Of a stretch of DNA of 64,000 nucleotides, positions 170 to 10,366 are shown piece after piece. Position numbers and translations under genes: made by a program. The notes under the pieces are model-generated. The model had not been told where the DNA came from. It saw only the letters and a list, made by a program, of their open reading frames with translations, and did not search any database. Source of the DNA: Erythrobacter cryptus DSM 12079. Lineage in GTDB: Bacteria; Pseudomonadota; Alphaproteobacteria; Sphingomonadales; Sphingomonadaceae. Each line of letters starts with the position of its first letter. Position 1 is the first letter of the stretch. The stretch covers positions 1 through 64,000 of the forward strand of contig NZ_AUHC01000010.1 of assembly GCF_000422985.1 (NCBI RefSeq), written 5' to 3'.

Positions 170-1219
170 CTACTCCGCCGCCTCGGCCCCGAACAAGCCC
201 GCCTCGGCCTCCTCGCCGGCGCCGCTCTCATTCGCCGCCTTGGCCTTCTGGCGCTTGTCGAAGCTTGCCCATACGTCGTTCCAGTTGCCGCGGGTGGCGC
301 CCTTGGAATATTCGGTTGCGCGGGTCTCGAAGAAGTTGGCGTGCTCCACCCCGTTGAGCAGCGGCTGGAGCCAGGGCAGCGGGTGTTCCTCGATCAGGTA
401 GATCGGCTGCAGCCCCAGCTGCTTCAACCGCCAGTCGGCGATGTAGCGGATATATTTCTTGATTTCCTTCGCGCTCATGCCGTCGACCGGGCCCATCTCG
501 AAGGCAAGGTCGATGAAGGCATCCTCGAGCCGCACGGTCTTCTGGCAGATGTCGACAAGGTCTTCCTTGACCGCCTTGGTCAGGCACTGGCGTTCCTCGC
601 AGAAGGTGTGGAACAGCTTGATGATGCCCTCGCAATGCAGGCTTTCATCGCGCACCGACCAGCTGACGATCTGGCCCATGCCCTTCATCTTGTTGAAGCG
701 CGGGAAGTTCATCAGCATGGCAAAGCTGGCGAACAGCTGCAGCCCCTCGGTAAAGCCGCCGAAGGCCGCGAGCGTGCGGGCGATGTCCTCGTCGGTCTCG
801 ACCCCGAACTGGCCGAGGAAATCGTGCTTGTCCTTCATCTCCTCATATTCGAGGAAGGCCGAATATTCGGTCTCGGGCATGCCGATCGTGTCGAGCAGGT
901 GTGAATAGGCGGCGATATGCACCGTCTCCATGTTGGAGAAGGCGGCGAGCATCATCTTCACCTCGGTGGGCTTGAACACCCGGCCATAGTGCTCGTGATA
1001 GCAGTTCTGCACCTCGACATCGGCCTGGGTGAAGAAGCGGAAGATCTGCGTGAGCAGGTTGCGCTCGTGATCGGTGATCTTCTGCGCCCAGTCGCGGCAA
1101 TCCTCACCCAGCGGCACTTCCTCGGGCATCCAGTGGATCTGCTGCTGGCGCTTCCAGAACTCGTAGGCCCAGGGATACTGGAAGGGCTTGTAGGTCGAGC
1201 GGGCTTCGAGCAGCGACAT
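170..1219 (-). CDS. nrdB: class Ia ribonucleoside-diphosphate reductase, beta (radical) subunit
   Basis: This 349-residue protein is the di-iron tyrosyl-radical subunit of aerobic ribonucleotide reductase, which makes dNTPs in the cytoplasm with NrdA. The metal and radical site is visible: E98-x-x-H101-x-x-x-Y105 matches the family pattern in which the tyrosine carries the radical. A second helix pair supplies TEGLQ and the R-D-E-S-L-H-C-E-G stretch with the other Glu/His ligands. The N-terminus begins directly with the fold and has no ATP-cone. The C-terminus is acidic and Ala/Glu-rich, as expected for the flexible tail that docks on NrdA. The gene follows nrdA and a microprotein gene in the same direction, so it is probably expressed from the nrdA promoter region. 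The ATG start at 1219 follows a GGAG-like ribosome-binding site. Confidence 0.96.
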   Translation of the reverse strand: MSLLEARSTYKPFQYPWAYEFWKRQQQIHWMPEEVPLGEDCRDWAQKITDHERNLLTQIFRFFTQADVEVQNCYHEHYGRVFKPTEVKMMLAAFSNMETVHIAAYSHLLDTIGMPETEYSAFLEYEEMKDKHDFLGQFGVETDEDIARTLAAFGGFTEGLQLFASFAMLMNFPRFNKMKGMGQIVSWSVRDESLHCEGIIKLFHTFCEERQCLTKAVKEDLVDICQKTVRLEDAFIDLAFEMGPVDGMSAKEIKKYIRYIADWRLKQLGLQPIYLIEEHPLPWLQPLLNGVEHANFFETRATEYSKGATRGNWNDVWASFDKRQKAKAANESGAGEEAEAGLFGAEAAE

Positions 1220-1529: not shown

Positions 1530-3635
1530 CTACTGGCAGCTCAGGCACTCCTCGTAATCGGTCTTCTCGCCGCTTGCCGAAAGCTCGATCCGCGGCGGCT
1601 CGGTGGTGTTGTCGGCCTCGACCCCGCCGACGAAGCCGGCGCGCTGCACGCTCTTGGAACGCAGGTAATAGAGCGACTTGATGCCCTTTTCCCACGCCTG
1701 GTAGTGCAGCATCATCAGATCCCACTTGTCGACATCGGCCGGGATGAACAGGTTCAGGGACTGGGCCTGGTCGATATAGGGGGTGCGGTCGGCGGCGAAT
1801 TCGAGCAGCCAGCGCTGGTCGATCTCGAAGCTGGTCTTGAACACCGCCTTTTCCTCCGGCGTCAGGAAATCGAGGTGCTGCACGCTGCCGCCGCGCTCGA
1901 GGATCGCGTTCCACACGTTGGTCGAGTTCTTGGCCTTCTTCTCGAGCAGCTTTTCAAGATAGGGGTTCTTGACGATGAAGCTGCCCGAAAGGGTCTTGTG
2001 GGTGTAGATATTGGCCGGGATCGGCTCGATGCAGGCGCTGGTGCCGCCGCAGATGATGCTGATCGAGGCGGTGGGCGCGATCGCCATCTTGCACGAGAAA
2101 CGCTCCATCGCCCCCATCTCGGCGGCATCGGGGCAAGGCCCGCGCTCCTGCGCCAGCAGCATCGAGGCTTCGGAGGCCTTGGCGCTGATGTGGCGGAACA
2201 TCTGCAGGTTGAGCGCCTTGGCCGCCGCGCTTTCAAAGGCGACGCCCTTGGATTGCAGGTAGGAGTGGAAGCCCATCACCCCGAGCCCGACCGAGCGTTC
2301 GCGGCTGGCCGAATACTTGGCCCGGGCCATTTCCGGCGGCGCGCGGTCGATATAGTCCTGCAGGACATTGTCGAGGAAGCGCATCACGTCCTCGATGAAC
2401 TGCCTGTCGCCCTTCCACTCGTCCCACTTTTCAAGGTTCAGCGAGGAGAGGCAGCACACCGCCGTGCGGTCATTGCCGAGGTGGTCGATGCCGGTGGGCA
2501 GGGTGATCTCGCTGCACAGGTTGGAGGTGGAAACCTTGAGCCCCAGGTCGCGGTGATGCTTGGGCATCATCCGGTTCACCGTGTCGGAAAAGACGATGTA
2601 GGGCTCGCCCGTGGCAAGGCGGGTCTCGACCAGCTTCTGGAACAGCGAGCGGGCATCGACCGTGCCGCGCACCGAGCCATCGCGCGGCGAGCGCAGGTGG
2701 AACTCCTTGCCATCGCGCACTGCAATCATGAACTCGTCGGTGACGAGCACGCCGTGATGGAGGTTGAGCGCCTTGCGGTTGAAATCGCCGCTGGGCTTGC
2801 GGATCTCGAGAAACTCCTCGATCTCGGGGTGCGAGATGTCGAGATAGCAGGCTGCCGAGCCGCGCCTGAGGCTGCCCTGGCTGATCGCGAGGGTAAGCGA
2901 ATCCATCACCCGCACGAAGGGGATGATCCCGCTGGTCTTGCCGTTGAGCCCGACCGGCTCGCCAATGCCGCGCACATTGCCCCAATAGGTGCCGATCCCG
3001 CCGCCCTTGGCCGCGAGCCAGACGTTCTCGTTCCAGGTGCCAACGATGCCCTCGAGGCTGTCCTCGACCGAATTGAGATAGCACGAGATCGGCAGGCCGC
3101 GGCTGGTGCCGCCGTTCGAGAGCACCGGGGTGGCGGGCATGAACCACAGGTTCGAGATGTAGTCATAGAGCCGCTGGGCATGGGCCTCGTCATCGGCATA
3201 GGCATCGGCGACGCGAGCGAAGAGATCCTGGAAGCTCTCGCCCGGGAGCAGATAGCGGTCCTTGAGCGTCTCCTTGCCGAAATCGGTCAGGTTGGCATCG
3301 CGCTGCGCATCGGTGCGGATGGCAAAGCGCCGGGCATTGACCTTCTTGCTGTCAGCCTGGGCGGAGGCCTTGGCCGCCTCGGCCAGCGCCCCGGCCAGCG
3401 CCTCGCCCGCCTTGGCCGCAATCAACGCCTGCGATCCGGCATCATCCCTTGTCATGCTCACTGCCTTTTCATCTCCGCGCGCAGCGCCGGCCGCTCCAGC
3501 GCCCTCGCCCGCAATCTCCGCCTCGCCCGGCACGTTCTCGCTCAGCCTGAATTCCATGTCCTGCCCCATATCCCCCCGAAATGTCCCCCCGAATCGAGCA
3601 TAGGCCAGTGGCCCCATGTTCTGATTCTGTTCCAT
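1530..3635 (-). CDS. nrdA: class Ia ribonucleoside-diphosphate reductase, alpha (catalytic) subunit
   Basis: This is the catalytic subunit of ribonucleotide reductase. Active-site signatures are present: C185 in I-S-C-Y-L-N, the N372-L-C374-S-E376 thiyl-radical motif, C394/C395 as redox partner, and a YYLRS stretch near the C-terminus that fits the radical-transfer tyrosines. The protein ends in C697-L-S-C700-Q, the swinging redox pair. The first ~115 residues are Ala/Glu/Gly-rich and show no ATP-cone fold. The reported start at 3635 gives 701 residues; ATGs at 3569 and 3557 (M-E-F-R-L-S-E) are credible alternatives, so the start is uncertain. It is the first gene of an nrdA-microprotein-nrdB run. 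A CtrA-like box and many GANTC sites upstream suggest S-phase control. Confidence 0.96.
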   Translation of the reverse strand: MEQNQNMGPLAYARFGGTFRGDMGQDMEFRLSENVPGEAEIAGEGAGAAGAARGDEKAVSMTRDDAGSQALIAAKAGEALAGALAEAAKASAQADSKKVNARRFAIRTDAQRDANLTDFGKETLKDRYLLPGESFQDLFARVADAYADDEAHAQRLYDYISNLWFMPATPVLSNGGTSRGLPISCYLNSVEDSLEGIVGTWNENVWLAAKGGGIGTYWGNVRGIGEPVGLNGKTSGIIPFVRVMDSLTLAISQGSLRRGSAACYLDISHPEIEEFLEIRKPSGDFNRKALNLHHGVLVTDEFMIAVRDGKEFHLRSPRDGSVRGTVDARSLFQKLVETRLATGEPYIVFSDTVNRMMPKHHRDLGLKVSTSNLCSEITLPTGIDHLGNDRTAVCCLSSLNLEKWDEWKGDRQFIEDVMRFLDNVLQDYIDRAPPEMARAKYSASRERSVGLGVMGFHSYLQSKGVAFESAAAKALNLQMFRHISAKASEASMLLAQERGPCPDAAEMGAMERFSCKMAIAPTASISIICGGTSACIEPIPANIYTHKTLSGSFIVKNPYLEKLLEKKAKNSTNVWNAILERGGSVQHLDFLTPEEKAVFKTSFEIDQRWLLEFAADRTPYIDQAQSLNLFIPADVDKWDLMMLHYQAWEKGIKSLYYLRSKSVQRAGFVGGVEADNTTEPPRIELSASGEKTDYEECLSCQ

Positions 3636-3823
3636 ACCCTTGCGTCCACAGGCTTGCCAACCGCCCTGTCCCGAGAGAGGCGCCTCGCTGGCCTGTCATG
3701 CCGCCTGGCCTCGGCCCACAGCGCGCCCCCTGCCGGCCGATCCTTCCCACCGTTGCCCCCCCGGGGGGGGCGGGACGATCACCAAGGCTTGGGGGTTCGA
3801 TGCGAGCCGAACCACTAGATGAT

Positions 3824-4030
3824 GAATCAGGGCGGGAATCGCGTCAACGCCCGATTAAGCCCGGATTAACCGCAAGGCCGGTGCCAGCTTGCCCCGCTTG
3901 CCCCGCGACGCATGGAACAAGCTTGAGTCGCGGCGCGCGCAAGCCCCAAATTGAATCTGTGAAGAAAAATATGGGGAGTGAATCTTTGGAATCCAGCCGT
4001 GAATCTTTTGCACGCGAGCGGGCATGAATC
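3824..4030 (-). promoter_or_regulatory. nrdA control region: GANTC cluster with TGAATCTTTG repeats
   Basis: The 434-base gap 3636-4069 lies upstream of nrdA only, because the neighbouring gene also reads leftward and ends at 4070. GANTC sites start at 3824, 3836, 3925, 3953, 3980, 3989, 4001 and 4026, with two more (3591 and 3623) at the first codons of nrdA. About two would be expected by chance in that span. Four of them belong to one direct repeat, TGAATCT followed by a short T/G run, at 3952, 3979, 4000 and 4025. GANTC is the CcrM methylation target, and methylated GANTC is read by GcrA in alphaproteobacteria (established). That this cluster acts on nrdA is inference. Confidence 0.6.
3855..3869. 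promoter_or_regulatory. CtrA-type box upstream of nrdA
   Basis: The sequence is TTAA, seven bases (GCCCGGA), then TTAA followed by CC. This exactly fits the TTAA-N7-TTAA CtrA consensus known from Caulobacter. It lies about 220 bases upstream of the longest nrdA start. TTAA is uncommon in such GC-rich DNA, so a correctly spaced pair in a promoter region is unlikely to be accidental, though it was found by eye and not scored. Confidence 0.55.
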
Positions 4031-4069: not shown

Positions 4070-4459
4070 CTAGCCCGCCCGGGCGGCGACTTCGGCGGCG
4101 TCGAAATAGTGGATGTGCAGGCTCTTCAGCAGCCCGTCCGCAAAGGTACCAAGCTCGCAGATCGTCTGGGTGAAGGGGGCCGAGCCGTCCCTGGGGTGCA
4201 TGGTGAGGCGAATCACCATCACCGCGTGGCTATCACCCCCGGTGCAATCGAGGATCTCGAGCCGGGTGTCGGCCCAGGTGCCATACATCGCCGCGGCGCA
4301 GCGCTGCAGCGCGTCCCTGCCGCGCCATTCGCCGCCAAAGGGCAGCGAGGCGGCCTCGTAGAGCACGAAATCAGGGTGGATCAGCGCTTCCACCGCCGCC
4401 CAGTCGCGCGTGGCGGCGGCGCTATAGACCCGGGCGAGCATGTCCCTGGGGCTGGTCAT
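4070..4459 (-). CDS. NTF2-like (SnoaL-fold) protein
   Basis: This 129-residue protein has the layout of a single cone-shaped NTF2/SnoaL domain: an N-terminal helix with A-A-T-R-D-W-A-A-V-E, then H-P-D-F-V-L-Y-E, W-R-G-R-D-A and a C-terminal strand with H-I-H-Y-F-D. Such domains bind small ligands or act as isomerases, hydratases or cyclases, so the sequence alone does not fix a function. It is the last gene of a five-gene operon; its ATG overlaps the stop of the lipoyl-domain gene by four bases, so translation is probably coupled. A role with the E1/lipoyl/SDR proteins is inferred from that arrangement. Confidence 0.8.
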   Translation of the reverse strand: MTSPRDMLARVYSAAATRDWAAVEALIHPDFVLYEAASLPFGGEWRGRDALQRCAAAMYGTWADTRLEILDCTGGDSHAVMVIRLTMHPRDGSAPFTQTICELGTFADGLLKSLHIHYFDAAEVAARAG

Positions 4460-9151: not shown

Positions 9152-10366
9152 ATGGCCACACTCGCTCAACCATCGCTTTTTGATGCGCCCTATATCCATG
9201 ACCTTGCGTCAGAGCTTGAGGCGTTCAGCTTCAACGGAGACAGAACTGTTGTCGAACATCGAAATGGCGTAGCATATTTCTTCAATGAGTTTTGGACCGC
9301 GCGCCAACGTCAGGCGCATTCGATCCACGAGATCAGCTATCGGGCGTGCTTCAAGCCGCAATTGCCCGATTTCTTCATTCAGCGGCTGACCAAGCCCGGT
9401 GACATCATCTACGACCCGTTCATGGGGCGCGGGACAACACCGATCCAGGCAGTCTTGACGGGACGCGTCGGGACGGGAAATGACATCAATCCACTCAGCA
9501 TACTGCTGACGCGTCCGAGAATTAATCCACCATCACTGTCTGCGATCAAGGATCGGCTGGATATGCTCGACCTTCGCTTCGGAAAGGTTCAGCATGAGGA
9601 GCTTGAGGTTTTCTTTCATCCCGAAACACTTGCAGAGATTGAAATGCTTCGCTCCTATTTCTTTAGACGCGAGGCCAGTGGGAAATTCGACCATGTTGAT
9701 GACTGGATACGCATGGTCGCAATCAATAGGTTGACCGGTCACAGCAGCGGATTCTTTTCAGTCTATAGCCTGCCGCCGAATCAAGCCGTCTCAGTTGAGG
9801 GGCAACGCAGGATCAATGAGAAGCGGGGGCAGGTTCCGCCGCGTCGATCGGTGAAGGACATCATCTTTAAGAAATCACGCACCCTGCTCCGTGATCGCGT
9901 TCCCCAGAGTGGCAAAGCGATATTACTAACGGGCGACGCAACAAACTGCGGGCTAGGCGACGCGACAGTTGACCTCGTCGTTACCTCTCCCCCGTTTCTC
10001 GACATTGTGCAGTATGCCGCTGACAATTGGCTTCGCTGCTGGTTTGCTGGCATCGAGGCTGCCGAGGTCGATATCGCCATGCATAAGAAGGTGGAGGACT
10101 GGACCTCGTTCACTCACCGGGTGCTTGCCGACCTCGCCCGTGTCACGCGACGCGGCGGTCACATCGCCTATGAGGTGGGCGAGGTCCGCAACGGCAAGGT
10201 CGAATTAGACAGTCTTGTTCTGGAGGCCGCAGTCGGCCTGCCGCTCGATCCAATTGGCGTCCTCGTTAATGTTCAGGAGTTTACGAAGACGGCAAACTGC
10301 TGGGGCGTGTCCAACAACTCGAAGGGCACTAACACCAACAGGATCGTCATATTCAGTCGTCGATAA
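9152..10366 (+). CDS. DNA (cytosine-N4)-type methyltransferase
   Basis: This 404-residue protein has the two hallmark motifs of amino-methyltransferases: the SAM-binding D88-P-F-M-G-R-G-T95 (FxGxG type) and the catalytic T278-S-P-P281-F. TSPP is typical of N4-cytosine methylation, whereas N6-adenine enzymes usually have DPPY. The motif order (SAM site first, ~180 residues, then catalytic site) suggests target recognition lies between them. Codon use is much more AT-rich than in neighbours (many AAT, ATA, CGA and TTT codons), which points to horizontal acquisition. The stop overlaps the 3' end of a convergent gene by 14 bases; that gene is a good candidate for the matching endonuclease. The recognition sequence cannot be predicted. 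Confidence 0.85.
   Translation: MATLAQPSLFDAPYIHDLASELEAFSFNGDRTVVEHRNGVAYFFNEFWTARQRQAHSIHEISYRACFKPQLPDFFIQRLTKPGDIIYDPFMGRGTTPIQAVLTGRVGTGNDINPLSILLTRPRINPPSLSAIKDRLDMLDLRFGKVQHEELEVFFHPETLAEIEMLRSYFFRREASGKFDHVDDWIRMVAINRLTGHSSGFFSVYSLPPNQAVSVEGQRRINEKRGQVPPRRSVKDIIFKKSRTLLRDRVPQSGKAILLTGDATNCGLGDATVDLVVTSPPFLDIVQYAADNWLRCWFAGIEAAEVDIAMHKKVEDWTSFTHRVLADLARVTRRGGHIAYEVGEVRNGKVELDSLVLEAAVGLPLDPIGVLVNVQEFTKTANCWGVSNNSKGTNTNRIVIFSRR

Follow-up and report, generated by a model that had tools for sequence, protein, structure and literature searches.

Ribonucleotide reductase is needed at raised levels while DNA is being copied or is damaged and at low levels when dNTPs are ample. In Caulobacter, nrdA (CCNA_03607) is essential, shows reduced expression when ccrM is deleted (log-ratio, -0.47 by array and -0.77 by qRT-PCR), has a GANTC conserved in five of five species, and belongs to the DnaA regulon and not to the GcrA or CtrA regulon (PMC3973325, including Table 1). 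For Caulobacterales, GANTC sites overlapping LexA boxes were suggested to be without regulatory effect, LexA sitting there (PMC7987155); the main text of that paper mentions no nrd genes, and for B. subvibrioides it reports no preference for YGAKTCK. The alphaproteobacterial LexA motif is cited as GTTC-N7-GTTC, the other strand of GAAC-N7-GAAC (PMC7987155, PMC9578287). NrdR boxes are reported to be bound well at spacers of 14 to 17 bp (PMC12051234), and the E. coli nrdAB promoter brings together several replication-linked inputs (DnaA, Fis, and IciA; PMC8203912). Each input is already known, and the CcrM link at nrdA has been published for Caulobacter. LexA control of nrdA in Alphaproteobacteria (searched by title and abstract) and an nrdA-specific GANTC-LexA composite did not turn up in searches of the open-access literature.

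The region upstream of nrdA in the window (the whole stretch of DNA analyzed, 64,000 nucleotides) is packed with conserved candidate sites for a methylation switch, an SOS repressor, and a dNTP sensor, and it therefore probably couples supply to replication, damage, and demand. We assign a probability of about 0.6 to its being a composite, multi-input nrdAB control region, with CcrM/GcrA timing, NrdR feedback, and SOS induction. On the evidence of sequence and conservation, we regard three parts as shown, namely, a cluster of CcrM sites under selection, a LexA operator over the proximal promoter, and an NrdR pair over the -10 element of a distal promoter that has GANTC sites in its spacer. The features are as follows:

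170 to 1219, minus strand: nrdB, encoding the beta subunit and following nrdA in the same orientation (NCBIfam NF007186, 592 bits; cut-off, 237)
1530 to 3557, minus strand: nrdA, class I ribonucleotide reductase alpha subunit, 675 amino acids (NCBIfam NF006577, 1042 bits; cut-off, 620)
3591 to 3595, no strand: GANTC downstream of the proximal promoter and ahead of the start codon, fitting YGAKTCK
3618 to 3632, minus strand: LexA (SOS) operator, GAACAGAATCAGAAC in nrdA sense, of the form GAAC-N7-GAAC (8/8 match to the alphaproteobacterial motif)
3623 to 3627, no strand: GANTC inside the LexA spacer (from the sequence, with relatives compared)
3631 to 3660, minus strand: putative proximal promoter, TTGGCA (3660 to 3655), 18 bp, and TATGGA (3636 to 3631) (from sequence and alignment)
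3780 to 3793, minus strand: NrdR-like box 2, CCCAAGCCTTGGTG (8 of 10 specified positions)
3813 to 3826, minus strand: NrdR-like box 1, TTCATCATCTAGTG, overlapping the distal -10 (7 of 10 specified positions)
3819 to 3847, minus strand: putative distal promoter, TTGACG (3847 to 3842), 17 bp, and CATCAT (3824 to 3819) (from the consensus scan)
3824 to 3840, no strand: two GANTC sites (3824 to 3828 and 3836 to 3840) between the distal hexamers or touching the -10
3855 to 3869, plus strand: TTAA-N7-TTAA, a CtrA-type box, not conserved (motif scan, with relatives compared)
3925 to 4030, minus strand: six GANTC sites (3925, 3953, 3980, 3989, 4001, and 4026), four of them AGATTCA in nrdA sense

The Caulobacter CcrM/GcrA promoters (ctrA P1, ftsZ, mipZ, and nrdA) likewise drive cell-cycle genes and carry GANTC, whereas the window has far more sites, spread over 440 bp, together with LexA and NrdR sites. 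GcrA dependence is marked No for Caulobacter nrdA; for the window, it is predicted from sequence. The LexA box resembles other alphaproteobacterial operators in being perfect (8/8) and in covering a -10 element, here the proximal one, but differs from them in the GANTC abutting or inside the box, an arrangement found in Sphingomonadaceae nearly only at nrdA. The paired 16-bp boxes of NrdR-repressed nrd promoters have their counterpart in a pair over the -10, the boxes being separated by one to two helical turns, although those in the window are degenerate. Several replication-linked inputs on one nrd promoter also recall E. coli nrdAB (PMC8203912), but the regulators differ. No convincing or near-perfect DnaA box was seen in the window by eye; the sequence CTGTGGA recurs near -95 in close relatives.

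The start of nrdA was placed at the ATG at 3557, where a conserved M[DE]F[RK]... sequence begins in the 80 related loci compared; the start of the longest ORF, at 3635, was rejected on account of this conserved start. All ten GANTC sites consequently lie upstream of nrdA; an earlier note on this DNA had the cluster overlapping the start of the gene, which no site does. The gap between nrdA and the next co-directional gene, which ends at 4070, is ~510 bp, and the GANTC sites are spread through it. BLAST found no second copy of the nrdA upstream region elsewhere in the genome, and the nrdA leader, compared with Rfam at E values of 1 or less, matched two eukaryotic families and nothing else, both scoring far under the respective cut-offs.

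The ten GANTC sites that the same note had counted within 440 bp are all in place (starting at 3591, 3623, 3824, 3836, 3925, 3953, 3980, 3989, 4001, and 4026), compared with a mean of 1.75 and a maximum of 7 in 5,000 dinucleotide shuffles of this stretch. GANTC is avoided genome-wide: the whole window holds 66 sites versus 250 in shuffles, and in a 400-kb sample of the 2.95-Mb genome, consisting of 20 stretches, the density is 0.69 per kb, equivalent to 0.305 sites per 440 bp. Because GANTC is so rare in the genome, the excess upstream of nrdA is ~33-fold. The nrdA stretch also ranks above the next densest place in the 400-kb sample, which has eight sites around the ccrM start. When the whole genome was scanned for three chained GANTC sites, 4 of the 20 forward matches fell at nrdA. 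Near-identical short, repeat-rich copies with chained GANTC were seen at G000:C3:352641-352698 and C20:17655-17712 and probably represent a repeated element.

The enrichment is shared by relatives; the genome itself falls near Porphyrobacter/Erythrobacter. Over 80 loci with 500 bp of upstream sequence (window included), the mean was 7.2 GANTC sites, whereas elsewhere in the loci it was 0.73 per 500 bp; the total was 576 versus 163 in shuffles (3.5-fold; z, 35.6), and none of the other 15 palindromic NN-N-NN pentamers exceeded 1.15-fold in the same sequences. The numbers of sites and some of their positions differ among relatives, yet the pentamer persists, and most close relatives of the window have a GANTC near -26 to -28. 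By this comparison, the GANTC sites upstream of nrdA are under selection. The extended GcrA motif YGAKTCK fits 3 of the 10 sites in the window (3591, 3623, and 3925) and not the other 7. Upstream stretches were added for 20 of the 27 family genomes initially without a locus and for 20 genomes of other families. The 130 family loci include many close kin and some species twice; one (L080) has only 71 bp of upstream sequence, and the window's own copy (L122) was left out of counts.

The distal part of the cluster admits a second reading. Four of its GANTC sites do lie in a TGAATCT direct repeat, as had been reported, around 3953, 3980, 4001, and 4026, at spacings of 27, 21, and 25 bp. The array is part of a conserved block, CACAGATTCA...CTTGCG...GCGTCGC, whose most conserved portion (3925 to 3995) is found in genera from Porphyrobacter to Novosphingobium and has no match in Rfam. 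Inspection by eye revealed no consistent -10 in the block farthest from the gene (about -400 to -360), and we therefore claim no promoter there. Among 350 distal sites of 129 family loci, 265 read GATTC in nrdA sense and 25 read GAATC, most commonly in the contexts AGATTCA (71 sites) and TGATTCA (62 sites), and YGAKTCK fits 75. This strand bias, set against the near-even A and T middle bases of GANTC in the genome sample (A, 120; T, 96; G, 32; C, 29), and the conservation of the flanking block beyond GANTC itself are what would be expected if the TGAATCT/AGATTCA array were the operator of another, orientation-dependent protein, the overlap with GANTC being partly incidental and the proximal sites still being CcrM sites. 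We consider such a separate oriented DNA-binding protein a serious rival explanation for the distal array, although a tentative one: since GANTC is avoided throughout the genome, incidental sites in such numbers would be costly, the pentamer stays while the number and some positions of the sites shift, a candidate protein is lacking, and the bias is inflated by shared descent, since the family loci are close kin. This bias and the seven window sites that YGAKTCK does not fit make it uncertain whether the distal TGAATCT repeats are recognized as methylation sites.

The composite, multi-input reading draws further on the LexA operator and the NrdR boxes, which the earlier note had missed and which are the best-conserved recognizable parts of the region. 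A scan of the control region for sigma-70-like consensus promoters returned one (3847 to 3819; 0.1 expected), which is conserved in relatives, and a GANTC lies between its hexamers or touches its -10 in 81 of the 92 family loci with a recognized -35. The NrdR-like boxes were scored with letters that we take to be the NrdR-box consensus, with 10 specified positions per box. The pair in the window is degenerate, matching 15 of the 20 specified positions. Of 129 family loci, 119 reached a pair score of at least 15, compared with 4 of 129 after shuffling; under a strict criterion, 46 of the 129 loci had a single box, compared with 1 after shuffling. In Novosphingobium-like loci, the pair reads CACTATNNATAGTG. 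In the window, the box starts are 33 bp apart; with 16-bp boxes, this leaves 17 bp between them, the largest spacer in the range of 14 to 17 bp reported to bind well. Spacers are 17 to 18 bp in the Erythrobacter/Novosphingobium group (18 in several relatives) and 15 to 16 bp in Sphingomonas-like loci.

The proximal -10 overlaps the LexA box, and close relatives align as TTGGCA...GGTATA-GAAC; this promoter was not reported by the consensus scan of the window and is proposed from the alignment only. In 97 of the 130 family loci, the nrdA start has a perfect LexA box no more than 140 bp away. A GANTC abuts this box in 64 loci (61 distinct sequences) and falls within its spacer in 20; 13 loci have neither arrangement. 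The window has the in-spacer form without the abutting one. The in-spacer form is confined to the window's clade (20 of 28 loci), and because the other 8 lack it, mostly having GAATT in place of GAATC, it may be incidental in the window. At the abutting site, GA and TC were each conserved in at least 64 of 68 sequences, whereas the middle base varied (G, 22; T, 16; A, 13; C, 12; 63 scored). A free N between fixed GA and TC is the pattern expected of a methylase site and not of a fixed protein motif.

The composite GANTCGAACN7GAAC occurred 40 times in 34 of the 56 family genomes searched (the split-nrdA genome, G027, being left out), compared with 10 matches to the reversed pattern. Comparison of match positions with those of the nrdA matches placed 34 of the 40, in 34 genomes, on the nrdA strand within ~240 bp upstream of the nrdA match and 6 elsewhere, so that the composite is essentially an nrdA feature and not a general part of LexA sites. 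GAAC-N7-GAAC alone is not enriched genome-wide (63 versus 82 for the reversed pattern), and the lexA gene of the genome has its own box of this type ~150 bp upstream. Of 20 nrdA loci from the order's other families (start codon taken as the first possible one in 7 of them), 12 have a LexA-like box that no GANTC abuts. The same holds for 8 of 40 loci across the class, for which start codons are rough; these come from 40 of the 48 non-family genomes of the class in which NrdA gave a strong match. A LexA-like box in near-invariant form, GTTCGACTTTTGTTC, was also observed ~100 bp upstream of nrdA in other families of the order (L174 to L184 and others), suggesting that SOS control of nrdA is old.

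These counts bear on whether the GANTC beside or inside the operator does anything of its own. It might have no effect because LexA occupies the site, leaving only ordinary SOS and NrdR control; this is the explanation given for SOS genes of Caulobacterales (PMC7987155), and the in-spacer site is not strictly conserved in the window clade. We consider it rather unlikely, since the free N with fixed GA and TC at the abutting site and the near confinement of the composite to nrdA, rather than its presence at all SOS operators, both argue for selection on methylation. A bolder proposal, which we judge unlikely, is that the SOS operator of nrdA in Sphingomonadaceae is methylation gated, with CcrM methylation of the GANTC that touches the LexA box, or lies inside it in the window clade, altering the binding of LexA or RNA polymerase. 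Damage induction of ribonucleotide reductase would then depend on whether the locus had just been replicated, and the nrdA-confined composite would be a dedicated replication-aware SOS switch.

It is highly improbable that the CtrA box and GANTC sites form a CtrA/GcrA/CcrM on-switch at nrdA, as the earlier note had proposed: the TTAA-N7-TTAA is perfect, the only one in the 64 kb (0.01 expected in the window), and 8 bp upstream of the distal -35, but the window is alone among 28 close relatives in having it (1/28), only 2 of 129 family loci have it, and Sphingomonas melonis can grow without CtrA (PMC8116508). The box was thus rejected, on conservation, as a functional nrdA element, and the CtrA part of the earlier reading fails because the box is private to this genome, while the GANTC part stands with the selection on these sites.

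Under the composite, multi-input reading, CcrM would methylate the GANTC sites upstream of nrdA, and methylated or freshly hemimethylated sites, read by GcrA with sigma-70, would raise nrdA transcription around S phase; GcrA would read some of the sites, not necessarily all. dATP-loaded NrdR would close the distal promoter when dNTPs are ample, and LexA would hold the proximal promoter down until DNA is damaged. Since GANTC touches the LexA operator elsewhere in the family, methylation state and SOS repression would share a few bases there. Against this reading stand the degenerate NrdR boxes of the window, with a spacer at the edge of the well-bound range; the seven GANTC sites that do not fit YGAKTCK; the loss of the in-spacer site in 8 of 28 relatives; the absence of genome-wide enrichment of GAAC-N7-GAAC; the placing of Caulobacter nrdA outside the GcrA regulon; the suggestion for Caulobacterales that GANTC overlapping LexA boxes has no effect; and the close kinship of many loci. 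Signals for replication, damage, and dNTPs apparently converge on one set of nrdA promoters, and in related genera a cell-cycle methylation mark is set against the operator of the damage repressor. For Alphaproteobacteria, the nrdA region thereby allows a direct and inexpensive test for an influence of adenine methylation on SOS repression.

Family loci of the abutting type (e.g., L036, L054, and L129) have an extended -10-like TGNTAGG in the sequence immediately preceding the GANTC-LexA composite. An inverted repeat such as GGCGGG...CCCGCC comes next and runs up to the GANTC; in some species it includes G-T pairs. The mean stem score was 4.71 at abutting-type loci versus 3.16 in shuffles; the arrangement is absent from the window clade.

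Genes for the predicted regulators are present in the genome. The CcrM match to NF050803 scored 598 bits, below the Caulobacter-specific cut-off of that model (830), with the RAMA domain over its cut-off, and lies in the order rnhB-ccrM-folP. GcrA (PF07750, 122.8 bits) is over its cut-off, and lexA and nrdR are also present. The eight GANTC sites at ccrM are located within and just upstream of its start (G000:C4:130498-130756), suggesting that ccrM itself is under methylation control. In the window, the ORF at 9152 to 10366 is, by its motifs, DNA methyltransferase-like.
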